Source of the DNA: Isoetes taiwanensis | Lineage: Eukaryota > Streptophyta > Lycopodiopsida > Isoetales > Isoetaceae | DNA length: 64,000 bases | Direction: 5' to 3' | NCBI GenBank assembly: GCA_021234155.1 | Contig: JAJEKV010000095.1 | Location: 3,422,621 to 3,486,620, forward strand | In this document: piece by piece, positions 1,472-38,469 of the stretch | Position numbering within the stretch: position 1 is the first letter of the stretch | How the letters are laid out: every line of letters starts with the position of its first letter | Made by a program: the position numbers and the translations under genes | Notes under the pieces: model-generated | What the model was told of the DNA's origin: nothing | The model's input: only the letters and a program-made list of their open reading frames with translations | Database searches by the model: none

Positions 1472-2905
1472 TCATGCATTGTCCTTTATTAGGTATCTGA
1501 TGGTCCTCTCCCATGCTCTCACCTCCATTGGTTTCTGCCCAGTTTTAAGTATCATGATTGTTAGTGGTGTATTTGCCCATACCTTAAATTCCTGTTTGTG
1601 CCATTGTCTGAGGATTCCTTCCTGTTTGTCCCACTTTTTGCCTGTTAAACCTGGCCCCCAAGCTTCAGCCCCGTATAATTGCATCGTGGCTACTACTGCA
1701 TTGAATAAGTAACACTTGATGTCCCAGTCAATTATTCTACTTTTATTGCAGAACTTTTTCATATTGAAATAGCTCCCTATGGCTGATTGGAACCTCATGT
1801 CTGTGCCCTTAGCCCATTTCCCCGTGCTCTGTGCATCATACCCCAGATACCTGTATTCCGCTGATTCCTCTATTTCTGTCTCCATATACCTGAAGGGTCT
1901 ATGCTTACTCTTATGCCCGAAGATGACTATCTTGGTTTTTGCTAGATTTACTGTTAGCCCTATTTTTTCACAGAAGTTTTCCAGTATCTTTAGTAGTCTG
2001 TGCATCCCCTTATTCTTTGTGGCCATCATGCTCAGATCATCAGCGTACAGCATAATAGGTACCTTGGTATCTCCTAGTATAGGGGCGTATTCGTCCCCCT
2101 GCTATTCTGCTATGTATCCCTGTAGTGCATCTATGTATATCCCGAATAAAGTCGGGGATAGAGGGCATCCCTGTTTGACGCCTGTATCACAGTCTATTGC
2201 CTGCCCTCCCTGTTCCATCTTTGCATATACCCTATGGTACAGTCTTGCAATTGATCCTACCATGTTTCTTGGAGCATGCATATCTATCAACCTTTGTAGG
2301 AGCTTCTCCCTCGGGACTGTGTCGAATGCTTTCCTAAAATCTACAAAGCAGCAAATTATTTTCTTTCCCTGTGCTTTGTTCTGCTCTATTAATATACGGA
2401 GGGTTACTAGATGGTCTGTGGTTGAGTGTTCCGGTCTAAAACCCGCTTGTCCCTGTGCCCTCAGATTTCCCGCTTCTACCCATTGTTTCAATTTGCTGTC
2501 CAGGCTTTTCCGAACCATTTTGCGAAGATGGAACTCACCATTATTGTCCTATAGTTTCTGGGATCTTTGTCTGCTTCCCCCCTTGTGTAGAGGTATGACC
2601 CTGTTGTATGTCCACCTGTCTGGGAGCCCGGTATATATTATGCCGTTGAAAATGTCTTTGACTTGTTTCCCTATTGCTCTTTCAGCACACTTTAGTAATT
2701 CCACTGTTAGTCCGTAGAGATCAGGGGCTTTGTGATTAGCCATCCCGTTTAAGGCTATCATTACTTCCTGCATGTTGAAGCACAGTTTATCCATATTCTG
2801 CAATGTTAGTATTGGCATTGGAGATGCCCCTATCCTGTATAATTTCTCCAGATATTTCTCCCATCCGACTGCTCCAATGGTGTCCTGCTCATTCTCTGTT
2901 TTCAT
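1472..2905 (-). CDS. LINE reverse transcriptase (broken frames)
   Basis: Three frame segments together make a non-LTR reverse transcriptase. 2905-2549 carries the N-terminal finger region with NHKAPDLYGLT. 2518-2102 carries GQAGFRPEHSTTDH, then VDFRKAFDTVPRE and GVKQGCPLSPTLFGIYID. 2053-1472 starts with the catalytic YADD box (MLYADDL) and continues through the thumb, with YLGYD and LYGAEAWGP. These are the standard RT blocks of L1-like elements, which copy element RNA at a nicked target. The frame changes at about 2535 and 2080. No RNase H domain is visible after the thumb. Confidence 0.85.
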
Positions 2906-2958
2906 ATTCCCACCTCCCCTCCTTTTAAATCCCTTCCAGAATCTTCGGGGTTGCCTTT

Positions 2959-4240
2959 TCAGCAGTCTGGCGCTGCACCAAGTTTTTGTTCCGTTTTAAC
3001 TTCAGCAGTCTCAAGTATGCTGCTCGTCTCCTTTCCTATATGTTCTTTGACCCTTCTTTTTTGTTCCCTGCATTCCTCATCATACCATACAGAGGCCTTA
3101 AAAGCATTGCTCTTCCTGGGTCTCTTTCCTTTCCTGAATACCACTGTTGCCACTCTAACCATAATGTCATTAAGGCTATTGCCGTTGTCATCTGCCTTAT
3201 GCTTTCCCCATTTCCATCTTCCCATTTCTGCCCTGGCCAATTGTATTAATGTATCTGTATACTTTTCCTGAAATTGGATTTTTATCTTCGCCTTCTCTTT
3301 TTCCTTTTCCCCTGTGTTATCAGCTTGTGTCGGCTCTCCCCCTTTGAGTGTTAACTGTATAGGTATGTGGCTTTCCCTTTTCCCAGTTGGCCATTCCAGT
3401 AGCATAAACCCTGCGACGATTTCCACTGCTTGGTTATTCATAATTACATAATTACATAACTGCTTGGTTATTCCCGTATGTATTCTGGCTCGTGAAGTTC
3501 CCTGATCCTCCCCATTTTTGCACCCCATTAGCTATGATTACCCCTGTCGCCGTACACATTTCGAGCAGTAATTCACCTCTGGCATTGATCTCTGCCTTGT
3601 CTTCTGTATCTCTCTTCCACTCCTGTGTTCTTGGTGTATATATCATCTGTCTCATCAGTGTTTGTGTTTTGTGCTTGTTCATGTCCTGTTCTGGCATTTA
3701 AATTCCCTGTTAGAATCATTGGTCCTTGTTCTTTCCATTTCATCATGTCTCCCTCAGGTCTAACAGTTCTAGCTTGTCACTGTTTGGTGGGTAATATGCT
3801 ATGATCAGAATTAGGTCTTGTTTGTTTTGCAATTGAATGTTTAAGACTATGTATCTTTTATTGATATCTGAATGTAAAATACATGCACTGTTAGCTACAC
3901 TATTCTTCACATAACAGGCCAGGCCTGCACTTCCCCTCCTTATCTTGAAATCTTTATCTTTCCAGCACATGAATAGCTGATACCCCTCTTCCTCCGGCAG
4001 CCTCTTGACGTTGTGCTCCCATGTCTCTACTAGACATATTATGTCGCAGCTGTGGGCTCCCTCGAGCCTCGCTCTGTCGTCCCACGGGTATCTGGTACAA
4101 TTCCAGTACCATATTGTCAGCGTCTCTTCCCCCGAGGTGGCTCCTTTGGGGTCTCCGTGTATTCTGTCCCATTGCCTGCTCTTCTCGGTCTTCCTCTGGT
4201 CTTCATTGTCGTAGTTGGGCCCATGACCCCCGTTCGTGGT
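2959..4240 (-). CDS. LINE APE-like endonuclease and linker (broken frames)
   Basis: In the frame ending at 3743 the endonuclease begins near 4140 with LTIWYWNCTRY, followed by CDIICLVETWE, the GSAGLACYVK block and IAYYPPN. These match the N, E and Y blocks of exonuclease-endonuclease-phosphatase domains of LINEs. The C-terminal part continues in other frames at 3697-3452 and 3528-2959. The usual SDH motif at the domain end appears as SHIPIQLTL near 3370. The enzyme would nick target DNA to prime reverse transcription. Confidence 0.7.
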
Positions 4241-4329
4241 GTTCGGTCTTCGTCGACCCTGTTTCCGTTTCTTTCTGCTCCTCCGTGCTGACTCCCTTCT
4301 AAGGTTATCGCTTTTAGCGCCCCCAAAGA

Positions 4330-4839
4330 CTACGCTCTCTCCGCCCTGCTTGCATGGTCGTGAGGGTTTATATTTTCCTTCTCCAATTCTATTGCTTTTG
4401 TTAATCCCTGTGCCCCCATATTTTGTTCTTGCGTCAGGATCCTCTGTTCCCTTACACTCTTGTGAAGGTATACTTTGCCGTTCCTGACACCCGCGTGTAT
4501 TCCTGCTTGATTCAGCTCCCTGGCCTTGGCTAATTCCCTGTGCAGCCCCTGGCGCTGCATAACTGTTAGAGCCTCTTGTACTTTGATCCCATTCCTCAGC
4601 CTGGATCCCATCCGCAGTATTCTCTCTTTGGCTACCAGGTCCCTCAGTGTCAGGTTTATGTGCCTCGACCGCCCTCTCCATTGGCCTGCCCGCACTGCTT
4701 TGACAATGATGCTACAGTGTTCCTTGAAAACTGTCTCTATTATCTCTGCAGTCACTCGATATATGTCCTCATTAGGTTTCTCCGCTACTCCTATCAATCT
4801 AACGTCATGCTTAATTCTATTCTGCTCCTCAAATTCCAT
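4330..4839 (-). CDS. LINE ORF1-like RNA-binding protein
   Basis: 169 residues. The N-terminal part (HDVRLIGVAEKPNED...) has the RNP-like start of L1-type ORF1 RRM domains. It is followed by a basic region (RAGQWRGRSRHINLTL) and the ending GVRNGKVYLHKSVREQRI, which resembles the C-terminal domain of L1 ORF1 proteins. In L1 elements this protein coats the element RNA. Overlapping frames to 4681 and 5150 encode charged stretches that may be its coiled-coil part. The assignment rests on layout and short motifs. Confidence 0.6.
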   Translation of the reverse strand: MEFEEQNRIKHDVRLIGVAEKPNEDIYRVTAEIIETVFKEHCSIIVKAVRAGQWRGRSRHINLTLRDLVAKERILRMGSRLRNGIKVQEALTVMQRQGLHRELAKARELNQAGIHAGVRNGKVYLHKSVREQRILTQEQNMGAQGLTKAIELEKENINPHDHASRAERA

Positions 4840-5069
4840 GATATATGGCTTTATCCTATCAAATGACTCCCATGCATCTAACTCAATTTGATTTCTCTAA
4901 TTCAACCAACCTCTGCATAATTTTAGCCTTCTCTTCTTCAATCTCGTCCATTCTGCGCTGCATCTCCTCGCTTGTCCTCTCGACCCCTTCTATCCTCACG
5001 TCCATACTGTATTTTGTTGCGGTTACACGTAACAAATTTTTTATATAGGATGGTGATATAAATGGCTTT

Positions 5070-5095
5070 AAAGCAGAGTTTCATTAAAGTTGGAA
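5070..5095 (+). repeat. Left 26-bp inverted repeat
   Basis: Begins AAAGCAGAGTTTCATTAAAG and is identical over 26 bp to the reverse complement of 19634-19659. The flank to its left is TATAAATGGCTTT. Confidence 0.7.
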
Positions 5096-5099
5096 ATTT

Positions 5100-5420
5100 C
5101 GTGATTCCATTTTCGCTCGAAATGAAATTGTTCGTTGTTTTTTCACACATTCAGCATTCAAATCTGCGCTATTTACTTAAAAATGCACAAGGATTAGCTT
5201 GAAAACCGCTCTATTTGACACGAAATGGGGCGGAAATCGACGGGCGAAACAACCTGGTTGCGCCATTTGAATAAAAATTGTGGAAAAAAAGCAATAAAGT
5301 CGCTGTATTTGAAGTGAATCATAAGGACAATACACGGAAAAAAGCAAACAAATAGCGCGGCCGCGCAGTCTGTTGCAATATATTCATATTGCAAATGGCG
5401 CTGCTGCGCTATTTGCTTTA
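5100..5420. promoter_or_regulatory. Subterminal region with GCGC(C/T)ATTTG half-sites
   Basis: Half-sites occur near 5167 (GCGCTATTTA), 5207 (CGCTCTATTTG) and 5259 (GCGCCATTTGA). Two palindromes follow: 5350-5369 (AAATAGCGC, spacer GGCC, a degraded right arm) and 5392-5415 (AAATGGCGC, spacer TGCT, GCGCTATTT). They match the motif in the introns and promoter region of the genes to the right. Confidence 0.6.
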
Positions 5421-5555
5421 CAAGTAAGATATACAAAAGGGGCAAATACATTAGGATCGTATGTGTCATCAGTATTCAAAAGATTCATCAGTACAGTAAT
5501 CATTAATACCACAGAGGTAAATCTTATATACAAGTATGATATGCAAATCAGTTTT

Positions 5556-7118
5556 TCAATATTGCTCACCAAAAACATTATCATCTGCTTTATCAATATC
5601 ATCCGGGTTAATCTTACTTCGGTCAATCTGCGTTTCTGTGTCTTGCACCACTTTTTCCCCGGATCCTGTGGCCTCTCCTGCACCAGCCTGTGACCCCTCT
5701 CCTCCACCACCATGTGATGTCTCTCCTCCACCACCATGTGATGTCTCTCCTGGAGTAGGCCCAGTCAGTGTCAAAACTCGACGAGAGTCCATGGCTGCTG
5801 GATCAAGCAAGGGATTAATGACGTTGTCAATTCTTCCAAGAATCCCTAGCATACATTGGATCATGCTCATAGGCCACACTACTCCTTTTTAACTGCAATG
5901 ATGCCCTAGTAAAAGCCCCACCAGAAAAAAAGTCCAGAACAAAGTTACCTGGAGGGCAGAGCTTATCGACAAGGTATGCTGTTGTAGCAGGACCAACCTA
6001 CTTGTGAACCACGTATTCCCCTTCCATACCTTGCCAACTGTATTTGAACCTGTCCCTCAGGAGCTTGTTAGCCAGATTCTCTGGCTCGGCACCAACTGCA
6101 TCTTTATGGGTCTTAGGAACTTCAGGTGCTTTCCGGGGATGTTCATCATAAAACCTGAGATCCAGGTGTTCATCAGGCTGTGCTTGGGCTGAGATCCTGG
6201 TGGCTAGACCATAGCTGTTGGCTCTTTTATGCCACCACTAGGTGCCCACCCATTTTCCTCTTCATACATGCCTAAGTAAACTCTAGATCTGGATTCTAGT
6301 CTCTCAAGGGCAGTGCCGAAGAGACTCGTATGTTCCGGCCTAGCAAAACATATTATCCAGTATGTCTCAACATTTGTCATCTTAGAAGCAGCATCAAAGA
6401 ATTTGGCCAGAGTGGGGGGATCCCAAATCGGAGTAATTTGCCTCGCATCCAAACAGATCATGCTGGCAGGCAACACGATCGGATCCTGGACAATCCCACC
6501 ACTAGAAACGCACTCCACATGAAATCTTTTGAACTCGTCCTCGGCCTCGGGCTTTAGAATCTTACGGATGGATCTGCCTAATGAGAAGGGCACATTACCA
6601 TGGACGCCCTCTTTCAGTATTCCGTCTGAGACCCACTTATTATGTACCACACCCCACGATAGGAGGGTTGAGTCTGGGAATCCGTCGGACACCTTTCTCA
6701 AGTCCTCGAACTTTCTGTACTTGATTCCAAGTTCATCATGGATGTAGTTGAGAATCTCCTTCTTCATGTAGGCAAGAATCCTCAAGTTCTGTGCTCTCGT
6801 CTTGAAAAAATTATCACCCTTATAATCCGATGTGACCTTAACATAAATGTCCCCTCTGATGGCTTCCTGCAGGACAGTTCTGCAATCTTCATAATCCAGG
6901 CCTGTCATGCATCTGAGGTAGTTCTCGCTAAAATAGTCCTTATCCTTTGCCCAATTGACTGCTATTTGTTGGCCCCTGTTATCTTTCAGCTCCCCCTTTT
7001 TCCATTTATTCCACATTTGGCGAAAGAGAGCGTAAATGTCGTCTGGCATAAAAACGAACCTGTTGACATCCTTAGTATGCTTTCCCCTGAGAATCTTGTC
7101 AACCATTTCAAGATAATG
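5556..7118 (-). CDS. Beta-class N4/N6 amino-DNA methyltransferase domain (3' exon of ParB-MTase gene)
   Basis: The exon begins at 7118 after a strong acceptor (TTTGCCTTTCAG) with HYLEMVDKIL. A linker rich in charged residues leads to the likely catalytic box WDPPTLAKFF at about 6425-6395, then VETYWIICFARPEH. After one frame shift near 6230 come HK-stop-VGPATTAYLVDKLCPPG and VLDFFSGGAF at 5940-5911, then LKRSSVAYEHDP. This is the order of permuted beta-class amino-methyltransferases: DPPY-like motif IV first, then HKxxGP and the SAM-binding FxGxG-type motif I. DPPT replaces DPPY, and a TAG interrupts HK|VGP. After another shift a Gly/Ser-rich tail ends at 5556. In the family such enzymes methylate adenine N6 or cytosine N4; the substrate here is unknown. 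Confidence 0.68.
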
Positions 7119-7239
7119 CTGAAAGGCAAACCAAATATGTTAGAGCTTGAATGCAGCAAAGTAGTATCAAATGGCGCCGCTGCGCCATTTGGCATCAAAT
7201 GGCGCCGCTGCGCCATTTGCTTCATACGATGGTACATAC
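7119..7239 (-). other. 121-bp intron made largely of two palindromes
   Basis: Donor AAG|GTATGT at 7240/7239 and acceptor TTTCAG|CAT at 7119/7118 join two frames in phase 0. Inside are two identical palindromes, 7168-7191 and 7196-7219, with arms AAATGGCGC/GCGCCATTT and spacer CGCT. The transcript would fold two stable hairpins within the intron. Confidence 0.7.
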
Positions 7240-7776
7240 CTTGTATTCGTCACTTCTTGATTGGCCTTTTCCTGCTGGTGCTGGCTTGCCGCACTCCTGG
7301 TATTGCCTACGCAGGTGGTGTATCTGATCTGCGTATGGTTCCTTAAACACCGTCCTGGCTACGATGTCATTGAGATCCACACCGAAATTTGAAGAAGGTC
7401 CAAGTCACTTTCGGTGCTCGGAAAGAACTCTGCCAGAATCTATAAGTGTAAATCTTTTCGAAGTTTTATTACGGCATCTTCGTCCCCAACCCGACCACGA
7501 CGAAGTTGTGCGGTGAGAGACGAATGGTTGCCATTGATGATGTAGAACCTCATACCGGCCGGTCGATTCTTGTGACCATGGTACTAGGCGCTTTGTATCT
7601 GGATCAAAGGGCACCACATCTGCCGGCGTGAAGACTGGATGGGGATCTTCAGCAAATGACTTGCACAGTTTCCTAACATGTTCAGGATTTACAACTCGTG
7701 CTGTCATGTTAGGAGGTGCCTCTTCCATATCCCAGATGGATATTTTTCTGATATATGTCACACCTAGAGGAAACAT
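7240..7776 (-). CDS. ParB/Srx-like domain exon of ParB-MTase gene (broken frames)
   Basis: Frame 7776-7405 reads FPLGVTYIRKISIWDMEE, then VVNPEHVRKLCKSFAEDPHP and DVVPFDPDTKRLVPW. After a one-base shift at CCGGCCGG (near 7555) it continues MRFYIINGNHSSLTAQLRRG. The pattern (a conserved I-x-D strand, a helix with V-x-x-L-x-x-SF, a hydrophobic strand, then YIINGNHS) is that of ParB-like nuclease/CTPase domains, with NGNHS where many members have DGxHR. Another shift near 7430 leads to GVDLNDIVARTVFKEPYADQ, and the exon ends at the donor at 7240. Prokaryotic and phage proteins that join ParB-like and N6/N4 methyltransferase domains are known; in a plant element this would be unusual. The fold call is from motifs only. 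Confidence 0.55.
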
Positions 7777-7779
7777 GTG

Positions 7780-8230
7780 ACCAGATCTTTCTTTGTTTTT
7801 TTAGAGTTTCTTCTGCCAACTCCTCCTCGGCATCACGATCCATCTTCAACTCCGAAAGCACCTCTAGACTTTCCATTTTCCTCTGCTTTCTGACCCTCGT
7901 CTCCTTCTTTGTTTCCCTCCTCCTTTTATGCGGAATGCTATCAGCCGTCGATGCAGCGCCTTTACCTCTCCGTTGTGGGGAGGATTTAGTATCACTAATG
8001 GTTCTCTCTGAATCCTGTTTATCCGGGGACTTGATAGGAGAACCGATAGGTGTCCTGATAGGAGGAGACTTGGGAGCTCACTTGGGAGGAGACTTGGGAT
8101 TTTCCTCGTCTTTCTTTTGATTCTCTTCCTCATGCTCTGTCCCTTCTATTTGGACTGCTCCTTTCTTTGGTTTGGCTTGCCTAAGGTTTGGCTTTCTCTT
8201 CCCATCCTTCTTTGTAATCTCCATTTGAAG
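7780..8230 (-). CDS. Basic, Ser-Pro-rich segment of ParB-MTase gene
   Basis: Minus-strand frame EHEEENQKKDEENPKSPP, one TGA stop, then SPP(I/K) repeats (PKSPPIRTPIGSPIKSPDKQ), a lysine/arginine cluster (PHKRRRETKKETRVRKQRK) and a probable coiled coil (MESLEVLSELKMDRDAEEEL). It runs directly toward the ParB-like frame at 7776. The basic cluster would serve as a nuclear localisation signal. No fold is recognised. The exon limits are uncertain. Confidence 0.45.
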
Positions 8231-8261
8231 CGGTCTTTGTCCATTAGAGCAGGCATATTAC

Positions 8262-8792
8262 CGAAGGTCTTGGCTCGACAATATGTGACACTTGAGTTCT
8301 TTGATCGTCCATGGCTGAGCGGAGAATGCCAAATCCTCTAAGTAGCTCGGCGCGGTGCCATTAATAGCAGCTGCCTCTACGCTTTTCATTATGAAGGCAG
8401 CGGCCGACCTTTTCTTTTGGCGTAGATATGCGGTCCTTGATCTTTGGATTCCATCATCGTGGATCATAAACCTGCCGATCCATGCAAGTCTGGATCAATG
8501 GTGCAATTCACGGGATCCTCCACTGTGCAACCAAGGAAGTCTAATCTTCCCTGCTTTTTCACCTCCCGCATGTTGACAATGATGCCAAGCTGCATCACAA
8601 CGTCCTGTTCACCACTTCTCGACTTTGTGAGGAGGCAAAGTTCTCTCCTCTTGTCCCCCTTTGTGGGGTCGACCCTTCCTCCAAGGGAATTGCCCTGACA
8701 ATTTCCATGCACCATGGCCTTCCAGCCATGACCACGGTCTTCTCCGTCACAACGTTTTGGGCCTTGGACAACGAAGCTTCACAAGAAAACAA
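8262..8792 (-). CDS. N-terminal exon(s) of ParB-MTase gene, unknown domain
   Basis: Three overlapping minus-strand frames follow one another: SKAQNVVTEKTVVMAGRPW from 8792, then REVKKQGRLDFLGCTVEDPV and CTIDPDLHGS to 8464, then IGRFMIHDDGIQRSRTAYLR through AAAINGTAPSYLEDLAFSAQ. The last ends at a possible donor (CTTCG|GTAATA) at 8262. The pieces read as one protein region with two one-base shifts. I do not recognise the domain. The start codon could be at 8792 or in a further exon to the right. Confidence 0.4.
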
Positions 8793-8828
8793 CTAATCAA
8801 CATTCAAATCATGAAACCCCAACCCAAC

Positions 8829-9244
8829 CCACTACGCCATTTGCATGTAAATGGCGCAGTGGCGCCATTTTCTCGACTGGCGAATGGGGAATCCCTCAAC
8901 CAGCCAACAATCCAGAGTGTACACTCCCTATTCTCGCCTCGCGAGTCGAGACATTCTCGACACGCGAGTCGATAATAAGGCCTGTACTTTCTAGATTGTT
9001 GGCAAGCTGAGGGAGAGGCGACTTGCCAGTCGAGAAATGGCGCAGTGGCGCCATTTGCATTATACTAACCAAATGTAAATGGCGCCACTGCGCCATTTGC
9101 ATTATACTACATCAGCTCTAAACAAACTACAAAACTAACACATCCCAAAGAAATGGCGCGGACGCGCCATTTCTTGCAGACGGGACCACAGAAACTCACT
9201 ATCCTAGACACCTGGACACATGAAACAGCGCGGTCGCGCTATTT
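8829..9244. repeat. Cluster of 9-4-9 palindromes
   Basis: Palindromes with arms AAATGGCGC/GCGCCATTT lie at 8849-8870 (spacer AGTG), 9035-9056 (AGTG), 9077-9098 (CACT) and 9151-9172 (GGAC). A variant lies at 9222-9244 (AAACAGCGC, GGTC, GCGCTATTT), and a half-site at 8834. The spacer is always 4 nt but differs in sequence while the arms stay constant. Between them, about 8935-8970, lies a second small inverted motif, CTCG(C/A)xxCGCGAGTCGAGA. Confidence 0.8.
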
Positions 9245-9289
9245 ATATACCCATGACCCAGAAAACAACTAAAAAAAAAGATTGAACTA

Positions 9290-10212
9290 ACCGGGAACCC
9301 GAGGCCATCGTGATATGCTAATCGCACAGGATCGCATTAACGGACCGTAGAAATTGTACTCCAACTTTTTGTCTGGAGCTCCTGGATCAACAGGCGCTAC
9401 TCGAAGGCGCTAGAGAGAGAAACACAAAGGCGCTAGAGAGAGAAATTTAAGGCGCTAGAGAGAGAAGGCGGAAGGCGCTGGGCGCTGGCGGAGGAGAAGG
9501 CGCTGGCGGCGGATAAAATGAAATGAGAGAAATGAAATGAAGAGAGAAAATGAAACCGTCGAAATTAATGGCGCGCAAGGATTTGTCCGCCCGCCACTTG
9601 AATTTCTTTGCATCCGTCAGCGTCCGCCCGGCGTCCGTCCGTCCGTCACTTGAATTTTAAAATTTGAATTTGAATTTCCTGCCCGTCCGCCAATTGAATT
9701 CTAAAAATTGAATTCCCCGCCCGTCCGCCACTTGAATTTTAAAATTTGAATTCCCCGCTACTTTTCGCATATATTGTGCCAGTCCCTGTCTCAAAGCTGT
9801 TTATAAAATCTGCGGGTACAGATATGGTAAGCGTATATGCGCTTTCGTCTTCAGATTATTCCGTGTTGCGATTTTACGCTCCCCGCCCTCGCTCAACATT
9901 CGCGGTACTTATACCGAGAGGACTTGGCCGCCAAATCGACGCGTCTATTCGCCTTAGGCATTGGTTCGGCCAGGCGCTTTGGGCGCTACCCAACCCGATT
10001 CTGGCGCTTTAGTTGGTTGGCGCTTCACTTGGTTAGCGGGCTTCTTCATTTCATACTTGGCGCTACCTTGATTCTGGCGCTTTAGTTGGTTTGCGCTTCA
10101 CTTGGTTACTTGAGCGCTTCTTCATTTCATAGCAGGCGCTTCTTCATTTGATAGCAGGCGCTTCCTCTATTTTGAAGGCGCTTACTTGATTCAAGGCTCT
10201 TCCCTTCATTCA
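9290..10212. promoter_or_regulatory. Divergent intergenic region with GGCGCT repeats
   Basis: This stretch separates the leftward methyltransferase gene from the rightward DUF8039 gene and probably holds both promoters. GGCGCT recurs many times at 9390-9505 (several within GGCGCTAGAGAGAGAAA) and again at 9970-10190 (GGCGCTTTAGTTGGTT and GGCGCTTCTTCATTT repeats). GGCGC is also the core of the palindromes. Between, 9560-9760 holds imperfect repeats of CCGTCCGCCACTTGAATTT. No gene is seen. Confidence 0.55.
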
Positions 10213-10244
10213 ATGGCAGATTCTCGATCTACAATGACCCCAAG
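10213..10244 (+). CDS. First exon of DUF8039-like gene
   Basis: ATG at 10213 opens MADSRSTMTP and ends at a consensus donor, CCAAG|GTTAGT. The phase (2 nt of the next codon) matches the acceptor at 10783, giving MADSRSTMTP-R-KRTLQNFLCG. The GGCGCT-rich region lies immediately upstream. Confidence 0.55.
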
Positions 10245-10783
10245 GTTAGTGACTGTTCTGTTTTAGTTTAACTGTCAGCAATTTCTCCTATAAGTGCAGA
10301 ATAATGTTTCTACTCTGTAGTAATCTGTAGTAACCTGTAACAATCCAGGAAATAATCTGTAGTCTATAGTAATCTGTAGTAATCTGTAATGATCTGTAAT
10401 AATCTTGTGCTCTGCAGTAATCTCTACTAATGTGTAATCTGTATTCTTTAGTAATCTGTAGTAGCCTGTAGTTATATGTAGTAATCCGTAGTAATCTGTA
10501 ATGTGTAATCTGCTTTCATAAGTTTTCCTGTTTTGTTTCCTAAGGAAGCCAAATGGCGCTGGTGCGCCATTCGCCTCAAAATAGTGCAGTCGCGCCATTT
10601 GCCTCAAATAAGCGCCAAGCGCCATTAAGGCAAATGGCGGTTTGTGCTATTCGAGGCAAATGGCGCGCCGGGCTGCTATTTGAACAAATGGCGCTTTTCA
10701 GCGCCATTTACTGTTTTTTGTCAATATTTTCTCGTCATTTCCGCGGGTTTTCTAACAATGTGTGTGTCATTGTATGCTTGCAG
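10245..10783 (+). other. Intron with TAATCTGTAG repeats and six palindromes
   Basis: Donor GTTAGT at 10245 and acceptor TATGCTTGCAG at 10783. The first half (about 10305-10510) is an imperfect short repeat of (G)TAATCTGTAG. The second half (10551-10709) holds six palindromes of the AAATGGCGC/GCGCCATTT type in 160 bp, with spacers of 3 to 7 nt and several mutated arms. Confidence 0.65.
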
Positions 10784-11454
10784 GAAAAGGACCTTGCAGA
10801 ACTTCCTCTGTGGTGACATGGTTGTTGCCAGGGGGCATGAACTGCATAGAGGGCACCTACATGAAAGAACATTGACTACTTTAAGAACGTCGTCGTGGAG
10901 GTTACTGAAGCCATAATTCCATCCCATGTGCTTCCCATTCCATGTGCAGGCGCAGATAATGTTGCTGAAGCCGTAGGCACATTGATCGAATGGCCTAGAC
11001 GTGACGTGAGAATCTGTCCAGATGCTTCACCTGTATCATCATCTGATACGGAAACCCCCAACCTGCCTAGTAGTTCCTCTACATCGTCATCACACAGTTC
11101 TCCTTCATCTCAGCCAATGAGCAACACGGAGAACTTGGTGAACTTATGCAGTGACAATGTTGTTGTTGGCAGTGAATAGAAGTATCATCCATGGGAAGGA
11201 TGTGGATGCACAGAACGTGGTTGTGCAAGTTACCGAGGCTGTGGTGCCAACTCACGTGCTTCCGATTGCATGTGCGGGTGCAGATAATATTGCAGAGGCT
11301 GTGGGCACATTCATCGAATGGCCTCGAAGCGATATACGTTTTCATGGCATTGATGCAGCCCATGATGAGACACCAAGATCAGACATGGGGACACCTACCT
11401 CACACAACTCATACATAGAATCTGTGGAGGCAGTATCAGATGCAGATGAAGAGA
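10784..11454 (+). CDS. DUF8039-like protein, two tandem units (broken frames)
   Basis: Exon 2 reads RTLQNFLCGDMVVARGHELH, then after a shift KNVVVEVTEAIIPSHVLPIP, GADNVAEAVGTLIEWPRRDV and a Ser-rich spacer. A second unit follows: ENLVNLCSDNVVVGSE, shift, then DAQNVVVQVTEAVVPTHVLP and GADNIAEAVGTFIEWPRSDI. The pattern (VVVxV-x-x-VLP-x-xxADxVxEAVGxxxxWP) matches the DUF8039 domain I know from plant transposon-associated proteins, often near Ulp1 or En/Spm genes. The frame is cut at 11455 by the inserted TIR element. The domain's function is unknown. Confidence 0.55.
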
Positions 11455-11639
11455 TAACCATCATTCATTTATTTTGGGATTATGTCTATTCCAAAATCGC
11501 GCCACATAAGCATTGTTTTCAGTGCATTTAGTGTTTTTTAATTCCATTTTTTGCATTTAAAAAACTGTAGTGTATGTTGTATATTTTATTATTTTCTTAC
11601 ATTTGCATTAAACAAGGCAAGGGAAAGACCCATTTGCTT

Positions 11640-12600
11640 GAAATTAACAGCAACAAGATATAGCATTACAACAACAAATATACTTGAATTAACAAATTCT
11701 ATATTGACATTACAACGAAAATAATCACTTATTTAACTAAATCAATCAAATATTAGAATATGTAAAACATAAAATCACTCTAATATATAAATATATTCAA
11801 AACAAATAATGGGATGTTTATACTTAATGGGATGTTTATATCTTGTTTTCTGGACCATCGATCTGGGGAATATTCTCAGATCAAGGGCCCTTAATTTTTT
11901 CCATACGCACCCCACGAAAAGTTTCAATGGTGCAAAACGAACCAATGGTTCGTGCCAAAACCAAAAAAAAAAAAGGAAATAAAGAATTGCAGAACCCACT
12001 GAAGGCGGCTATGGACTGCCGGAATGGGGCTTCTAACATGCAAATCGGGCCTTCGGGTCTGATTGCCGACACCCTCAGACTAATTTTAAGCTACTTTGGT
12101 GCATATCCGGCTTGGGTTGCTGCAGATCTGCACCTCCGATTATGGCGGCTATGGCCCCTTCCAGATTCTTGTGTGGCCCTATTTCCTTCAGGTCAATCCT
12201 CCTGAACCTATTTCGGCCAGTTTCCAGGCCAAACCGAGCTGCTTTAGATCGCCTCCCTTGATACCATCTTCGCTCCATGCCACAGCCCTGCCATCGACCT
12301 GCACACAAATCACAGATGGAATCGGCTAATTGCAACTCAGGCCCTGTCTCAGATCGAGGCAATGCAGCTCCTCAAGTCACCATGCCGGTCTGCTTCAACA
12401 CACAACCAGCCCAGACCTCCCCTGCGTTTGCCCTGTGCCTGCCTCTCCTCCGCTGCCCTTGCCAAAAAAAGAAGGGAGCGTCCCTTCTCATCCACGCCCT
12501 AAAAAAACGCCGCCAATTTTTTTTAAACTATTGAGCTCACTTAAAAAAAAAAGCACAAACGCATCACCCAAATAGAAACTTGACCCCCGCAACAAATAAG
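11640..12600. other. Element interior, no supported gene
   Basis: AT-rich to 11850, then a more GC-rich stretch (12000-12480) with short frames on both strands that show no family motif. I support no gene here. Confidence 0.4.
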
Positions 12601-12602
12601 CA

Positions 12603-12721
12603 GCTCTCACCTGCACAAACATACCATTTTGAATACAATACCATACCAGAATCTTAGTCCCCTCTCACCTGCACAAACATACCATTTTGAATACAATACC
12701 ATACCAGAATCTTAGTCCCCA
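12603..12721. repeat. 57-bp tandem duplication
   Basis: CTCTCACCTGCACAAACATA through GAATCTTAGTCCCC is present twice in a row (about 12605-12662 and 12662-12720), almost identical, so it is recent. Confidence 0.85.
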
Positions 12722-12886
12722 CCATTGCCAGAAAACCCTCCCCAAATACCAAACGAATTGGGCAAACATAATCACATCTTTTTAACAATCCCTTGTAGCA
12801 TTTTAGCCAAATAAAGCTGCAATATCTCTACAAATTAACAAAGGTGATGTCCTAAAAAGAGAAAATTGTGATAAGACGTGAGGGTT

Positions 12887-12907
12887 AAATCGCGCCAAGC
12901 ACGATTT
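12887..12907. repeat. Palindrome AAATCGCGC/CACGATTT
   Basis: Arms AAATCGCGC and CACGATTT with spacer CAAG. This is the C-variant of the palindrome, shared with the sister element at 60976-61457. Confidence 0.6.
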
Positions 12908-14165
12908 CATGAGCTATGATAGTGCAGCTACACAAAAAAATCACACTTCTACGTGTAGCTATGCAGTAACGCTGCTTTAGAATGTAGAAAAGTTTGAGAC
13001 CGTTGTGCAATATTGAACCCACAAACTGCATCGTTTTCAGATCAACAGAACTGCGGCTCTTATTCAAGCACCATCTTCTTCACCAACCTTAGCTCCAATA
13101 CTTTCCACTGCAATAATACCCCGATGGATCTGCTCCAACCCCTGTTTGAGACAAATGGGCTATGGATGGCAGTTCCAGACTACACTTTTTTATCTCTTTT
13201 CTTTGGAAGTAACAGAAACCAACTAATTCCTTCTGCAGTATTCATCAGCAGAAGCATTAACACCAGATTGTGTAAACTATTATATATGCATATGTCTAGC
13301 CCTGAACATGCTTCCCTTCCTTATACTGGAGATATAGAAGAGCTACAGATGCCACAAGACTCAAAAATAGCTGCAAAATTTGCATCTGAGTTACAAATTT
13401 CTTCCATGGTGTGTTGAATCCCAGACTAGAAAGAAAGAAATAACCATATACAAAGGTCCTGAGCGCGGTACATGCAAGCAATATGACAACTTGAGAAGAT
13501 TGAATATATTCAGGCTATGAAAAGGGTATCAAAATCACATGAAACAGAGTAATATGACACTTTGGCAGCACCACAATCAGTGTACCCAAAATCTCATAGA
13601 TCTTTGAAAGATGATACAAAATAAGGCCAAAAGAAAACCTTACCAAAAGCTCAAAATCTGACCAGAAAATAGAGCAGCCAAGTTGCCCCATTTTCTTTGA
13701 TCTCTGCCGCTTGAATCTGCTCCAAAGCCCCTGTTTCTTCATCTTCTTCAGCTCTGGCATTACTATACTAGCTCCGGACAAGAACTTCATCTATAAATTT
13801 CGTCTGAAAATCTATAACTGTATAACTTGAAAATCAAATAGACTATGAATCTTGTAACCCCATCAAATATAGATTTCTATTCTGTTCTGCTCACCTGCGC
13901 ACCTGTGATTGCCATTGTTGATGTCTGCAATGAGGGCCGTATCTACATAGTCTTTCCATATTTTTTTTTTATCTAAGCAAGCACAAAAGTACAAACCACC
14001 AGAGTCTAAGAGACACCAGAGACTGCCCAACATGCTGCATATCTTGGTCACTGAGAAAAGCATATATCTTTTGAATAGTAATCCCCTGCTATTTGAAGAA
14101 GCACATGAAACCACCGGCTCATTGCAGTTCTATTTTCCACCTAATTCTCTTATAGAAGTGGCTAA

Positions 14166-14266
14166 AAAAGGCTTATTAAACATAGGCTCCAATTCCATAC
14201 AAAAAGCTGTCTTCAAATGGCTTATTAAACATGGGCTCCAATTCCATACAAAAAGCTGTCTTCTAG
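14166..14266. repeat. 50-bp tandem duplication
   Basis: GGCTTATTAAACATxGGCTC through AAAAAGCTGTCTTC occurs twice, at about 14170-14216 and 14219-14265, with one difference. Confidence 0.8.
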
Positions 14267-14749
14267 TGCTAGAATACGCAGAAGCATGCTCGGGCATATT
14301 GCTAACACTGCAAAACCAAATCCTACAGAAAGAGCATGATTATTTAGAACTTGAAGGTGAAATTAAAAAAAAAAATAGAAGCAAATCCTATATAAGAGCA
14401 AAACTCATTTAACAATCTACTGACGAATCATCATAGGTGTTAGTTAATCATTGACTATAATCCAAGCAAGTATTCTGAAACAAAACTGCACAAAACTCCC
14501 CTGTCCAGGTCCAATTTTCTATGTTTATCGTTTGCTCCAAAATCCGACCATCTTTTTCTGCTGTTTGCAAAATCCACCTTCTTCTGCCGTTTTGCACATG
14601 CTATTTCATGTCATATTTTATACTGCAGCCATATTCCGTACCCTTTTCATGCCATATCCGTTGCTTTTCATGCCATATTCTTTGCTGTCCACATCCGCTA
14701 CTTCATGCCATATCCATTGCATTTCTATATCTCTCTAGTTGCACCTCAC

Positions 14750-15070
14750 GCTAGGGCAGAAAAGAAAACGAAATGGAAGAGGGAAGCCACACTCTGGCGG
14801 AAAAGGAAGGGAAGCCACGCTCGCTCTGGCGGAAATGGAAAATAAAATGGAAGAGTGAAAAAAACGAAATGGGTGGGAGAGGAAAGAAAAAAAAAGGGGA
14901 GGAAAACAAAAGTGAAAAAAGGAAAACGGCTGCACCCAGGAGGACGCGTGAAAAAAAGAAAACCGATGCACCCAGGACGCACGACGCGAGGGAAATGAAA
15001 ATCAAATTAAGCACACGGGCGGGAAAAGCAAAAGCGGCAAAAGATGGCAACGACCGCAAAAAGTGACAAT
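14750..15070 (+). other. Purine-rich subterminal region of TIR element
   Basis: GAAAA/GGGAAA-rich sequence in which an open frame encodes only Lys/Glu/Arg repeats. It is the reverse-complement counterpart of the pyrimidine-rich 60116-60360 region of the sister element, so I read it as element sequence, not a gene. Confidence 0.6.
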
Positions 15071-15165
15071 CTAATTTTGTCCCAAAATTAAGACATATTC
15101 TAAAAATATTTGAATGATGGTTAGATTGATCCATCAGTGGATTTAGCTACTCGGTTTGCTTGCAG

Positions 15166-16515
15166 AATACCATCAGATGATGATGAGCCACCACCTAGTT
15201 ACTCAAGAACAGAACTCTTGGAAATGCAGTGCCACATTCTCCATTCTTGTACTAGAACTAAATATGCAGAAGCTATAATTCTATTCAGTGATCCACAGGA
15301 TGCTGTTGATGATGAATTCTTAGGAGACATAAAGGTTGGCCTTTGTGTTGGAAAGGTGCTTCCTGAACTAATGAAAGAGGATCTGAGATGTCATGCTTGT
15401 GCAGAAAGGCCAAGTGACAATGCACTTGTTCGGTGGGAAAATAGCGATGTGATGCTGCTGGATGGAAGGACTGTCTCACAACATCTGCAAGCTCGAGAAG
15501 CTAAAGAAAATGAGGATATAGAGCTAGAATCATTTGAGGACAACATTCAGGCTCAATTCAAACGAAAGAGGAAGTATACTTACACACATAGGATTCCAAG
15601 AGAGCCCAAGGGAAAAAGCAAAGAGGAAAGGCTATGCTCCACAACTTCAATCAATAAGTTCATGAAGTCAAGCTCTTTGCAAAAAATACTTGCAACAAGA
15701 AACTTACCAAGCATCAAGTACGTGAATTAAGAAAAGAATTTTTATCCCAACCATACAATGCAAGGGTTACGTTTTTTTTTTACGTGCTGAGTGTGACTTA
15801 CACAGGAGAAGGAGAGGACAGGATAGTGCTCAAGGGGATGGAATTCTGTCTGGCTGGGTGGCGCATGGCTTTAGGTATCAGTCAGTCAACATTTTACAAT
15901 TGGAGAAACAGATTTGAAGCGGGTGCAAAGGTAGTGAACATGGTAATACCGGGCTCTAAGAAGCCTAGATCCACTACACCGCCACCAAATGTGTGCTAGA
16001 TGATTCATTCGAGGAGAATGTTGAAAGTACTCCCCATAGGAGCAAAAAAAGAGGTAGAGATGATGTAAGAGAAAACGTCACATAAAGCTTCCTTCCATTC
16101 TTAATAAGAAGCTTATACATAAAGAAGTTGGTGCAGTCGTTGAAGAGCTTACAGGAACAACTGTAGCCTTGAACTCTTTTTATAGTATATGGAAAAGGGA
16201 ATTTCCAGATGTTAGCATTGCAAAAAATACAGCCTTCTCTAAATGCAACATCTGCGTGGTAATTAAGCAAAAGCTGAAAAAAACAAAAGATACAAGAGAG
16301 AGACGAAATCTTGCAATTCAACGTCGGCCTCATATGCTAGAGCAACATTCTTGCAGAAATCAATATTGGCATTGGAGAGCATTGTCACAGCAGTCTCCAG
16401 AAAATCATCTATGTATAATACATGATAAGATGGATCAGGTTAAGACTTTAGTGCCTAGAAGTCATCATCTAGCAAAATCTGTATGGAGAGGTGATCACTT
16501 GAAGAAGAGTTTTTG
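15166..16515 (+). CDS. DUF7869-type transposase-like protein, N-terminal half (broken frames)
   Basis: After an acceptor-like TTGCTTGCAG at 15166 the frame reads RIPSDDDEPPPSYSRTELLE to a stop at 15730, including LRCHACAERPSDNALVRW and a basic stretch. A second frame (15800-15999) carries RIVLKGMEFCLAGWRMALGI and STFYNWRNRFEAGA, a helix-turn-helix-like region. A third (about 16090-16515) reads LNSFYSIWKREFPDVSIAKN, CNICVVIKQKLKKTKD, then HSCRNQYWHWRALSQQ and LCIIHDKMDQVKTLVPR. In DUF7869 proteins the IHDKMD strand holds the first acidic residue of an RNase H-like core. Three frame changes occur, so the gene is broken as read. It may once have been joined to the DUF8039 exon at 10784-11454. 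Confidence 0.65.
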
Positions 16516-16527
16516 ACAGAGCTCGAC

Positions 16528-17985
16528 TCATGGGCATGGTGGTCGTGCCTATGGTCATTTCTCACTTGATTTATGGAAAGATGATTCAAACTTCCACATT
16601 GGTTCACTTTCTAGAATATTGCATAACTTGGAATTGGTACAAGAGGACAAGATAGGTGACTTATGTGGAAGTAAGCCTACAGATTGCAAATGGATGCAAG
16701 CAGTCAAGGATACCAATCCTTTGAAGAACAAACTTGCTTCTATGGCAGAAGTATTGCCAAATGCTTCAACTACAACGAATCCTGAGGTGTTCAACCCTCT
16801 CCCCCGAAATCTCTATTTGCAACTTGATAATGCATCAGGGCAAAACAAAAATAGGTATGTCTTCTCATACTTATCTTATTTGACTTGGCTTAAGGTCTTT
16901 GATGAGATCCAAGTGGGCTTTATGATGGTCGGCCACACCCATGATGATATTGATGCTTTATTTGGAAATTTTTCAACCTTGATGAGTTCATCGGATGCTT
17001 TGACACTACCAGAGCTACTTTACTTGTTCAGCAAGTGCAATGCAAAATCTCCAATTCCATACTTTATTGATGAAGTTCCAAATTGGAAGGCTTTTGTGAA
17101 GGGATTCATCCCTGATAAGGGCCAACGCCTGGTTGGGCATACTGAACCATTGCTCTTCAAATTTAAGATGGCAGGAGATTGGCCTGTTATGCAATACAAA
17201 ATCGCCCTACACATAAAGAGTGGCTTCAGCCAGATTCTCCAGGAGTTAGAATGTGGAAAGAGGATGAACATGGTCAGCCAATGCTACCAAGTGGTGTGCC
17301 ACAAAATATTCCTCCTAGACCAACATTGAAGGATCTTCCAGGGTTGAAGGATAGCATCAACAAATACATCTCCCTATGGAAGGACATATGTAAGAATCAA
17401 GAAAGTAGCTTGTTTGCAAGGCAATACACGGCAAGTGTTGAGTATTGGAGCCAGCTTCTTATCTCTTTGGAGGATGTTGCTCCAGGACGTCCTCAAAATG
17501 ATGCATTTTGGCCACAAACAAGACAAGCTCCTCTAGAACAAACAGCATTTGTTCCAGAGGTCGACGTATCTGCCTTGGTCACACGACCTTTACCATCTTA
17601 TTGTGGCCCGTCAGATGGCCGTCCAGTGTTGCCTCTTGAAGAGTTTGATCCTCGCGTACATGTGACAAAGGGTATGTTTGTTCTAGTCAGACCTGGAGAT
17701 GATAACACTGCCACTTGGTTAGGATATGCAGAGGAGAATGCTGTTCTTGATCCAGAATCTACATATTTTGGCCATATTTTTGTATTGTGGTGGAAGCCTA
17801 CTGGAGGGGACTACAAAGACTGCTTGACTAAGCATTGGCGGCCTAATCCTTCCGATCCTTCAAGGTATGAAAATTTAGATGCTATTCATTATGCCTGGGA
17901 TGCCAATGGCAAGAGGCCGAAAACAGTCCAAATTCCGAAATATATTGTAGACATGTGGAAAGACATAGCACATTGTTCATCTTAA
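16528..17985 (+). CDS. DUF7869-type transposase-like protein, C-terminal half (broken frames)
   Basis: After a shift near 16525 the frame reads THGHGGRAYGHFSLDLWKDD, then NLYLQLDNASGQNKNRYVFS and VGFMMVGHTHDDIDALFGNF. These are the hallmark boxes of the DUF7869 family (LDNxxxQNKN and GHTHxDID), the likely second and third acidic positions of a DDE/RNase H-like fold. A shift near 17275 leads to the C-terminal part, ending FVLVRPGDDNTATWLGYAEE, HIFVLWWKPTGGDYKDCL and LDAIHYAWDANGKRP, which resembles a BAH/SH3-like barrel. The stop is at 17985. The family occurs in plants, cnidarians and protists and behaves like a mobile-element gene, but its activity is unproven as far as I know. Confidence 0.75.
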
Positions 17986-18151
17986 TACATGAGATCTTGT
18001 ATTTGTAATACATATCTTTCATCTTAATACATAAGATCTTGTACATTACTATATTTGTGATCATATATAACTGCTTACATCTTTAATATATAAATGCATA
18101 CACGATTCATAGATAAGATGGTCAGAAGTGCTTATATGTTGAACAGGTGAT

Positions 18152-18390
18152 TCATTCATCTTCAGGATCTGTAGTAGTGATCCCTGATATCTCATAGCTC
18201 ATGCGCGCCGGGAAGCCAAATCAAATGGATCATAACACGAATTGACGGAGGGCAATGAATCTCGGCCAAAGCTTTCTCTTCGGTAGGGATCAAGAAGAAG
18301 ATGTCTGTCTAGGCAACCAACAAGATCAGAGTGGCTCATTGAGCACTTGATCGCCTCGATGTGGTGAACAGAAGAAGGCAAATAATCCAT
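18152..18390 (-). pseudogene. Small paralogous gene, copy 1 (frameshifted)
   Basis: Starts MDYLPSSVHHIEAIKCSMSH SDL at 18390. Aligned to copy 2 it keeps IKCxMSxxDLxxC, then, in shifted frames, RVMIHLIWLP and MSYEISGITTTDPEDE ending at 18152. The intervening CCCGGCGCGC replaces CCTGATCAGGAG of copy 2. The upstream 80 bp (18391-18470) are nearly identical to those of copy 2. Function unknown. Confidence 0.55.
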
Positions 18391-18655
18391 GGGAGATGAA
18401 TGACCTCTAGCCCCGAATGGAGCTGTTTTTATAGTGAAGTAAAATTATTGATGTGAATTATTGGGGTGGACCGGTCATGCCATCGCTGAGCCGTATACAA
18501 GTATCATGTAATGCAGGTATGATTCTATCATGTACTCGATTCTATACATCACCTAATATTCACTATGCTTATATTATATATATCCTTATCGGATACACAA
18601 ATCATAAGTGCTTATATTATTATATCCTTAACGGTGTATCTGGATCATCACCGAT

Positions 18656-18898
18656 TCACTCATCATCAACACCGAATGAGGTAATGGCATTCAGCTCATA
18701 GATCTCCTGATCAGGAAGCCAATATAGGTGGATCACAACACGAGTGAGCTTCCTGCAAGCACTTGCAGGACCATCTGCTTTGGATTGCGGCCATGGATCC
18801 ATCTTGACACCCTTTATTGCGCAATCATACAGATCATTGTAGCTCATGTAGCACTTGATGGTTTGGATGTTCTCCGGACGATCAGGCAAGGAAGCCAT
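18656..18898 (-). CDS. Small paralogous gene, copy 2 (intact, 80 aa)
   Basis: MASLPDRPENIQTIKCYMSY through RVVIHLYWLPDQEIYELNAI and a short acidic end. The frame is open. Upstream, GGAGCTGCTTTTATAGTGAA (near 18930) contains a TATA-like box and is shared with copy 1, followed by AAAATTATTGATGTGAATTA. I recognise no domain, signal peptide or membrane segment. Three paralogs in 1.3 kb, one inverted, and conservation at protein level support a real small gene family carried by the element. Confidence 0.55.
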   Translation of the reverse strand: MASLPDRPENIQTIKCYMSYNDLYDCAIKGVKMDPWPQSKADGPASACRKLTRVVIHLYWLPDQEIYELNAITSFGVDDE

Positions 18899-19019
18899 GG
18901 GAGATGAATGACCTCTACCACCGAATGGAGCTGCTTTTATAGTGAAGTAAAATTATTGATGTGAATTATTGGTGTTCATTGCCATTATACGAGTACCATA
19001 CATGTATATGATCCAATAA

Positions 19020-19110
19020 TTTCTATGTATATACTATTAATAATTTTGGTGAGTATATACCATCAATAATTTTGGTGGGTATATACCATCAATAATTTTG
19101 GTGGGTATAA
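19020..19110. repeat. ~31-bp tandem repeat
   Basis: Three units of TATACCATCAATAATTTTGG TGGG(TA) with small differences, directly upstream of small gene copy 3. Confidence 0.75.
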
Positions 19111-19124
19111 ATATACATCAAATT

Positions 19125-19402
19125 GCCGTCGAAAGCAACATTGGCCTCCCGATCTAGCTATGACGATTACGGTCTTGAACGTGATTCTATCACTTGCAAG
19201 ATGAATCATGAGGACTTCAAGCGTGTCGCATGGCGAGATATACCGCTTGAAGGCGGCTCACCACCTTGTTGCTCTCAATCCTCGCCATTATCCTGATCCC
19301 GTCGATGTTATCATCCATCTCCTATGGAATAGAGAGTATCAAATGTTCATGATCGAAAGGATCTCTGGAGCGCCTTCTGCTAGTTCTGATCATTCAGAGT
19401 AA
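19125..19402 (+). CDS. Small paralogous gene, copy 3 (opposite strand)
   Basis: An upstream frame reads LERDSITCKMNHEDFKRVAW, matching IKCxMSxxDL of copies 1 and 2. After a shift the frame ending at 19402 reads VDVIIHLLWNREYQMFMIER, matching RVVIHLYWLPDQEIYELN, and ends DHSE. It is the most diverged copy and lies on the plus strand. Function unknown. Confidence 0.45.
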
Positions 19403-19439
19403 TAGTAGAAGAATAATAGTACTTGTTATCTTATTGTAA

Positions 19440-19590
19440 TCTGGTTGTGTTAGTATACAACAGGTATACATAACCTTTTGTGATACACATAACCGTAATA
19501 TATGTATTGATGTATACTAGTATACACATGTATACATAACCTTATGTAATACACATAACCATACTATAAGTATTGAGGTATACATAACCC
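19440..19590. repeat. Imperfect repeat of TATACATAACC...ACACATAACC
   Basis: Two units of about 70 bp contain GTATACATAACCTTxTGT and AATACACATAACC, ending just inside the right 26-bp inverted repeat. Confidence 0.6.
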
Positions 19591-19633
19591 TCCAAGTATA
19601 CTATATAAAAATTATTCCAACTTGTCTTCAGAA

Positions 19634-19665
19634 TTCCAACTTTAATGAAACTCTGCTTTTTAGTG
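19634..19665 (-). repeat. Right 26-bp inverted repeat ending in TAGTG
   Basis: 19634-19659 is the reverse complement of 5070-5095; TAGTG follows at 19661-19665. Read inward this end is CACTAAAAAGCAGAGTTTC, the form of a CACTA terminal repeat. Confidence 0.65.
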
Positions 19666-26880: not shown

Positions 26881-26922
26881 AAATCAGTATTAATATCGTT
26901 CAAAAAAAAAAAAAAAAAAAAA

Positions 26923-32900: not shown

Positions 32901-32930
32901 TAACTAGAAAACTGAATTTAAGAAAAAAAA
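29920..32930 (+). repeat. 3-kb macrosatellite unit 2
   Basis: Length 3011, nearly identical to unit 1. It contains an internal duplication of ATCTTCATTTGCCAGATCTA TAAG near 31277-31322 that unit 1 lacks. Confidence 0.9.
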
Positions 32931-35900: not shown

Positions 35901-35947
35901 AGTCCTGGTTTCTAGTATAACTAGAAAACTGAATTTAAGAAAAAAAA
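32931..35947 (+). repeat. 3-kb macrosatellite unit 3
   Basis: Length 3017. It shares the ATCTTCATTTGCCAGATC duplication with units 2 and 4. Confidence 0.9.
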
Positions 35948-38443: not shown

Positions 38444-38469
38444 AAAAAAAAAAAAAAAAAACATATTTT

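Follow-up and report, generated by a model that had tools for sequence, protein, structure and literature searches.

A two-gene DNA transposon of Isoetes taiwanensis with palindrome arrays and a probable catalytically dead relative of phage ParB-methyltransferase fusions

We analysed a 64,000-nucleotide stretch of the Isoetes taiwanensis genome (assembly GCA_021234155.1, contig JAJEKV010000095.1, forward-strand positions 3,422,621–3,486,620; hereafter the window, in whose coordinates all positions are given). It contains a two-gene cut-and-paste DNA transposon, in which a transposase gene with helix-turn-helix (HTH) and DUF7869 parts stands head to head with an accessory ParB/methyltransferase-like gene, here called gene two. 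Gene two most likely descended from a phage-type ParB-methyltransferase fusion; the methyltransferase fold and the domain order appear to have been retained and the signature catalytic residues of both domains lost, under continued selection. Its protein is most likely a sequence-specific DNA-binder, with AAATGGCGC-N4-GCGCCATTT palindromes as the candidate sites. These are clustered upstream of the gene, in both introns and near the gene-side end of the element, and binding there would mark the element's own copies. Such binding most likely keeps host silencing off the promoter region of the element, as VANC does for VANDAL transposons, and possibly aids transposition too. We give this reading as a whole, a dead ParB-methylase fusion that recognizes its own element via the palindromes with anti-silencing as the likely use, a probability of about 0.5. 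A fuller version, in which the phage-type fusion became a double pseudoenzyme that reads a parS-like array of 22-bp palindromes in sequence-specific anti-silencing, as an independent counterpart of VANC, is put forward more tentatively.

The element spans 14,588 bp (5071–19658), including a nested insertion, and is delimited by 25-bp terminal inverted repeats (5071–5095, AAGCAGAGTTTCATTAAAGTTGGAA, on the gene-two side and 19634–19658 on the transposase side) and by a 4-bp target site duplication (TSD), TTTA, on both sides (5067–5070 and 19659–19662). The perfect inverted repeat pairs 5070–5095 with 19634–19659. A preliminary description of the window had placed the gene in a mobile element, which these boundaries bear out. 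A similar end (at most 6 mismatches of 26), beyond which the flanks diverge, was found past gene two in 15 of 18 other copies fetched from the assembly (L009–L026), but not in L010, L014 and L026. The other side was read for six of these copies and the window, seven stretches that were all chosen for having gene two. The HTH/DUF7869 gene is head to head with gene two in all seven (HTH part only in L013). For five of them both ends could be placed: the window, L015, L017 and L023 (at most 6 mismatches) and L019 (7 mismatches and an inserted base). They were not found in the L013 stretch, nor in that of L021, which starts inside the transposase gene or just past it. In gene-two orientation the TSDs are TAAA in the window (TTTA on the plus strand) and in L023, CACT in L017 and ACTT in L019; for L015 it can be read as GTTT offset by one base or as a five-base duplication. 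The 4-bp TSD is thus clean in four of the five elements and offset by 1 nt in the fifth.

The other elements with both ends measure 10.6–11.5 kb. A natural size of 14.6 kb was rejected, as 3.7 kb of the window copy is the nested insertion (3,667 bp, 11456–15122), which has inverted ends AACCATCATTCA and a 4-bp TSD of its own (AGAT), splits the probable transposase gene and is absent from L013, L015 and L023.

Comparison of copies, with splice sites read partly by eye, resolves gene two into three exons on the minus strand (9308–5556). Exon 1 (9292–9308) begins with the start codon at 9308 and was read by eye as ATGGCCTCGGG followed by the donor GTTAG; this string is present in 3 of 10 copies looked at (L009, L013 and L014). 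Intron 1 (8777–9291), also set by eye from the compared copies, contains palindromes. Exon 2 (7240–8776) encodes the N-terminal region, a Ser/Pro/Lys-rich stretch and the ParB-like domain. Intron 2 (7119–7239, 121 nt; donor TACAAG/GTATGT, acceptor TTTCAG/CATTAT) holds two palindromes. Exon 3 (5556–7118) encodes a helical region, followed by the permuted methyltransferase-like domain and a Gly-rich tail. All 17 copies checked have the intron 2 donor string TACAAGGT at the expected place; acceptors were printed for five of these, and that of the window was read by eye. These observations support the introns proposed in the preliminary description as the mark of a eukaryotic gene. Its gene boundaries, 5556–8792, were dropped, since exon 1 sits further upstream: the start given at 8792 falls in intron 1. 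Short tandem repeats around AAGGCGCTAGAGAGAGAAA lie upstream of exon 1, at 9402–9479.

The window gene belongs to a multicopy family and is itself decayed. The basic Ser/Pro-rich stretch, YIINGNHS and VLDFFSGGAF, by which the minus-strand gene had been recognized, are all present. Compared with the exons of L013, however, exon 2 switches frame several times and exon 3 does so twice, and an in-frame stop lies inside HK-stop-VGP. A search of the whole 1.66-Gb assembly with the open 311-residue stretch of exon 3 yielded 130 matches (127 of 3,399 candidates scored). Less decayed copies with open exons occur among them, and many others are broken like that of the window. The 18 fetched copies were picked for long open frames or divergence and are biased to the less decayed.

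The C-terminal part of the protein has kept a methyltransferase fold. Structure comparison identifies a permuted Rossmann fold, with the motif IV half preceding the motif I half, and profile comparison with phage ParB-methylases gives an E-value of 1.4e-5; the permuted methyltransferase of the preliminary description is upheld by both. Single-sequence Pfam matches to PF01555 are weak (6 of 15 members at E≤1, best E 0.0017), with a score of 13 against the curated cut-off of 26.7 in the one member whose score is shown. Two PHROGs DNA methyltransferase families are matched by 4 and 2 of the 15 members (best E 3.2e-4), with no match in this search for the first member. A sequence search of the PDB returned RsrI at E 0.064, followed by an unrelated odorant-binding protein at 0.43.

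The catalytic motifs, in contrast, are gone. Motif IV, [DNS]PP[YFW], occurs in 0 of 15 aligned relatives versus 8 of 8 phage controls, and the strand expected to end in DPPY ends LDAR, LHAR, LDTR or LDTK in all 15. The window copy does contain a DPPT box (IWDPPT), previously noted as part of the methyltransferase, which we discarded as motif IV: it is private to this broken copy, lies nine residues past the expected end of the motif IV strand, and is replaced by WDPAT, WDSAT, WNSET, RNSET, WDKTT or WDNTT in the 15 relatives. The S-adenosylmethionine motif I, D-x-F-x-G-x-G, is altered to [FY]S[AGCD]G[AS][FL] in all 15 (for example DFFSAGAF, DFFSGGAF and DYFSCGSF). The HKxVGP motif noted earlier persists as H[KR]Q[VI]GP or NQ[VL]GP in relatives, but it is interrupted by the stop in the window and deleted in L022. 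Most of the acidic residues that follow strands 1, 2 and 4 are retained. Because motif IV is absent and the glycine loop altered in 15 of 15 relatives, we read gene two as a dead enzyme, the methyltransferase of which is probably catalytically inactive.

The ParB-like part shows a colinear profile match to the phage ParB-methylases (hhalign), which is weak (E 0.012, probability 3.5%), although none of 60 column shuffles reaches its score. This match makes the ParB-like domain of the preliminary description plausible; the Pfam search, including PF02195, gave no match. The PDB sequence search returned nothing sensible and PHROGs nothing named. The fold model of this part is poor and gave no useful match, and the matches listed in the structure comparison include no ParB fold. 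At the place of the ParB active site, 12 of 12 relatives carry GNH[ST] or, once, GNQS, where phages carry a G-H-x-R pattern with the arginine present in 7 of 8 controls. A conserved arginine in the pocket is described for the ParB-Srx superfamily in the part of PMC5512222 that concerns it; by our own reading, this arginine would correspond to the aligned one of the phage proteins.

Selection on the protein was assessed from the ratio of non-synonymous to synonymous substitution rates (dN/dS) in 16 hand-picked pairs from 15 copies. Ten within-subfamily pairs have dN/dS of 0.24–0.54, and the distant pair L013 and L021 has dN 0.22 and dS 2.7; dS is saturated in three of the 16. The gene two protein is thus under purifying selection across deep divergence. 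Searches for homologues elsewhere were negative. With the spliced protein (residues 300–960 scored), nothing was found at E≤1e-3 among 7,669 candidates from a collection that may hold few eukaryotes. None of 174 pattern-matching stretches in viral contigs encodes a relative of gene two, and tblastn of L019 exon 3 against phage records gave no match.

The 22-bp palindrome AAATGGCGC-N4-GCGCCATTT occurs in non-coding parts of all 18 fetched copies. Counting mismatches over its 18 fixed positions, each copy has at least six, with totals of 151 at ≤1 mismatch and 215 at ≤3, often spaced at 26–28-bp steps. Arm sequence and spacer length do not change in the L017–L020 subfamily, where exon 3 shares only 41–43% identity with the L013 exon. 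On its two strands the window has 19 AAATGGCGC nine-mers, all of them between 5260 and 10710, within the gene-two half of the element. The window has 10 palindromes at ≤3 mismatches, versus none in 10 dinucleotide shuffles of positions 1–30000. One lies at 5393–5414 (1 mismatch of 18) and two exact ones in intron 2 (7169–7190 and 7197–7218). Intron 1 holds four exact ones (8849–8870, 9035–9056, 9077–9098 and 9151–9172) and a degenerate one with 3 mismatches (9223–9244), and an upstream cluster consists of 10551–10572 (1 mismatch) and 10579–10600 (2 mismatches).

Placement was counted for 95 sites at ≤2 mismatches in the seven larger stretches, with hand-set landmarks. Between the two genes (promoters, exon 1 and intron 1) lie 66 sites, with 17 in intron 2 and 9 in the 3′ part. 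The remaining three belong to L017, in the region of its disrupted exon 2. None is in the transposase gene or past it, and none of 180 sites in 15 copies falls in exon 3. Mismatches are distributed near-symmetrically over the two arms (r 0.92 for nine position pairs), with the outermost pair uneven (18 vs 5), as expected if the palindrome is read by a symmetric protein.

We favour a self-recognizing DNA-binding factor because the array follows gene two and because the look of an enzyme is kept without its chemistry. The ParB-like and helical parts would be the likelier DNA readers. By analogy, the closest functional parallel would be the VANC anti-silencing proteins of VANDAL (MuDR) transposons in Arabidopsis (PMC5735166, PMC10398659; both in excerpt). 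According to the excerpt of PMC5735166, arrays of the VANC motif occupy upstream regions and the introns of genes of the element, for the most part outside coding sequence. The gene two element is similar in having a second transposon gene and many copies of a short motif in non-coding parts, in its own introns and upstream. The VANC21 motif is nine bases long, forms single-orientation arrays and changes fast, and binding and loss of methylation have been shown for VANC (same excerpts); the gene two element differs in having a 22-bp palindrome that is kept between subfamilies and whose binding by the gene two protein is predicted. Given the palindrome arrays, which the preliminary description does not mention, countering host silencing would fit gene two better than the marking of DNA proposed there.

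CpG content offers a further hint. With palindromes masked, the observed/expected ratio in the four elements examined is 0.69–0.87 between the genes, compared with 0.43–0.55 in exon 3, 0.42–0.67 in exon 2 and 0.49–0.72 in the transposase half; element flanks range from 0.15 to 0.73. The between-gene ratio exceeds those of exon 3 and the transposase half in all four, which hints at less methylation-driven decay around the arrays.

Several points weigh against this reading. The higher CpG ratio could have other causes, and in the window the between-gene value of 0.69 (nested insertion included) is barely above the 0.67 of exon 2. Subfamilies share the palindrome sequence, unlike the fast-diverging targets of VANC, and the role of the palindromes could lie with the transposase, a host protein or RNA structure. 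ParB membership is plausible, an assignment that rests on the weak profile match. Two very close pairs have dN/dS near or above 1 (0.97 for L013–L014 and 1.29 for L013–L012), which is what relaxed recent copies would be expected to give.

The alternative that survives best, though we consider it unlikely, is a transposition cofactor without a role in silencing, whose binding to the palindromes organizes DNA for synapsis or excision. Gene two and the transposase share the same ends, and accessory transposon proteins typically have arrays of sites, TnpA of En/Spm being an example. For a synapsis cofactor one would expect sites at the two ends of the element, however, and none of the 95 lies in the transposase gene or at the end on its far side. 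It is somewhat less probable that gene two is unrelated to the palindromes, these being transposase or host-factor sites, RNA hairpins or parts of promoters. Their location around divergent promoters and in introns suits such roles, and perfect arms would also make hairpins. On the other hand, the sites also track the introns and 3′ region of gene two rather than the transposase gene, and their 22-bp form stays the same though the transposase and gene-two halves of the window and L023 elements differ in divergence.

An active, divergent N4-cytosine or N6-adenine DNA methyltransferase with an unusual motif IV, marking the element's DNA, is more doubtful again. The permuted amino-methyltransferase fold, the acidic residues still mostly in place and the purifying selection would all agree with activity; the loss of DPP[YFW] and the altered glycine loop throughout the 15 relatives count against it, and the one DPPT box is private to a broken copy. 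Finally, passenger cargo without function for the element, which the broken state of the window copy and many others might suggest, is very improbable given the purifying selection and the constant orientation of gene two relative to the transposase gene across the seven stretches, chosen as these were for having gene two.

The transposase gene lies on the plus strand. Its probable 5′ coding part (10865–11455) consists of open frames, and the frame continues, by eye, across the empty insertion site of L015. Within it are 121-nt direct repeats (10884–11004 and 11212–11332, 78% alike), which encode AEAVGT.IEWPR-type segments that we take to be reminiscent of other plant transposon proteins. The HTH part follows the nested insertion at 15658–15999 (HTH_23, E 1.4e-4; 22 bits, under the Pfam cut-off of 24.6). 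The DUF7869 domain (16517–17329; PF25273, E 5.2e-38), which the preliminary description had rightly seen near gene two, is the probable DDE-type transposase core, judging from its motifs. A C-terminal open frame (17330–17985, part of an open frame at 17167–17985) is in a different frame in the window copy. DUF7869 is a very large transposase-like family in this assembly: there are 9,902 first-look candidates, about one per 170 kb, and the 150 scored are all above the Pfam cut-off. It is so common that the shared ends carry more weight than its mere co-occurrence with gene two. The eight loci with the best DUF7869 matches show neither these ends nor palindromes within 1.5 kb on each side, a reach too short to inform, and DUF7869 is named in no paper found in the open-licence PubMed Central (PMC) literature.

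The two halves of the element have probably been exchanged between lineages. In the transposase half, 2.2-kb pieces of the window element match L023 at 92.1% and 91.4% identity; across 2.0 kb of gene two the identity is 72.7%. We favour exchange because the dS of gene two between L013 and L021, which belong to the subgroups of the window and L023, is far above what 91–92% identity in the transposase half allows. This resembles the Sola2-Fanzor chimeras of PMC3627910: in the part of that paper that covers them, Sola2 elements with Fanzor cargo have 4-bp A+T-rich TSDs, a conserved transposase half and a differing other half. With the Sola superfamily itself, the gene two element agrees in the 4-bp TSD only.

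Among the matches listed in the open-licence PMC literature, titles and the starts of abstracts describe no ParB-methyltransferase gene in a eukaryotic transposon. Papers on DIRS1-like retrotransposons reportedly contain the words 'methyltransferase domain'. Marchantia DN4MT1 and bdelloid rotifer N4CMT are said to be active enzymes, unlike the gene two family, which lacks motif IV. The phage ParB-methyltransferase fusions, such as that of phage WOVitA1 (ADW80149), share with gene two the order of a ParB-like followed by a permuted amino-methyltransferase part, in colinear profile matches. They differ in having DPPY (8 of 8) and GH-x-R or AH-x-R (7 of 8), neither of which occurs in any gene two relative; gene two is longer, has introns and adds an N-terminal region and a helical insert. 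Bce_0392 is a ParB-methylase named among such fusions in PMC5512222 (in excerpt). Fungal DNA transposons with a gene for TET/JBP, dioxygenases that act on methylated bases, likewise have a DNA-modification-related gene beside the transposase (PMC12730594, in excerpt); ParB occurs zero times in the main text of that paper. Mariner-2_PGv and Mariner-1_OLpv of algal viruses are transposons with a methyltransferase gene; the relevant part of PMC3627910 assigns these to other domains (Methyltransf_26, C5-cytosine) and does not call them ParB fusions.

Few transposon-encoded systems of self-recognition and anti-silencing are understood, and the gene two family would offer a second, apparently unrelated protein with a conserved candidate site. 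The link between non-coding site arrays, loss of methylation and survival of the element becomes directly testable in this family. Gene two also suggests that prokaryotic DNA-modification enzymes can be retained by eukaryotes for their ability to bind DNA once catalysis is lost.

LINE-like (long interspersed nuclear element-like) reading frames, presumably for an endonuclease and a reverse transcriptase, judging from their motifs, occupy the minus strand at 1472–5005, starting about 65 bp outside the terminal repeat; gene two was rejected as part of this LINE, the frames of which sit outside that repeat. Elsewhere, the window contains a tandem array at 26912–38450 (nearly four copies of a ∼3.0-kb unit, 97–98% identical) and a 2.5-kb direct duplication (41916–44374 and 50377–52843, 96% identical).

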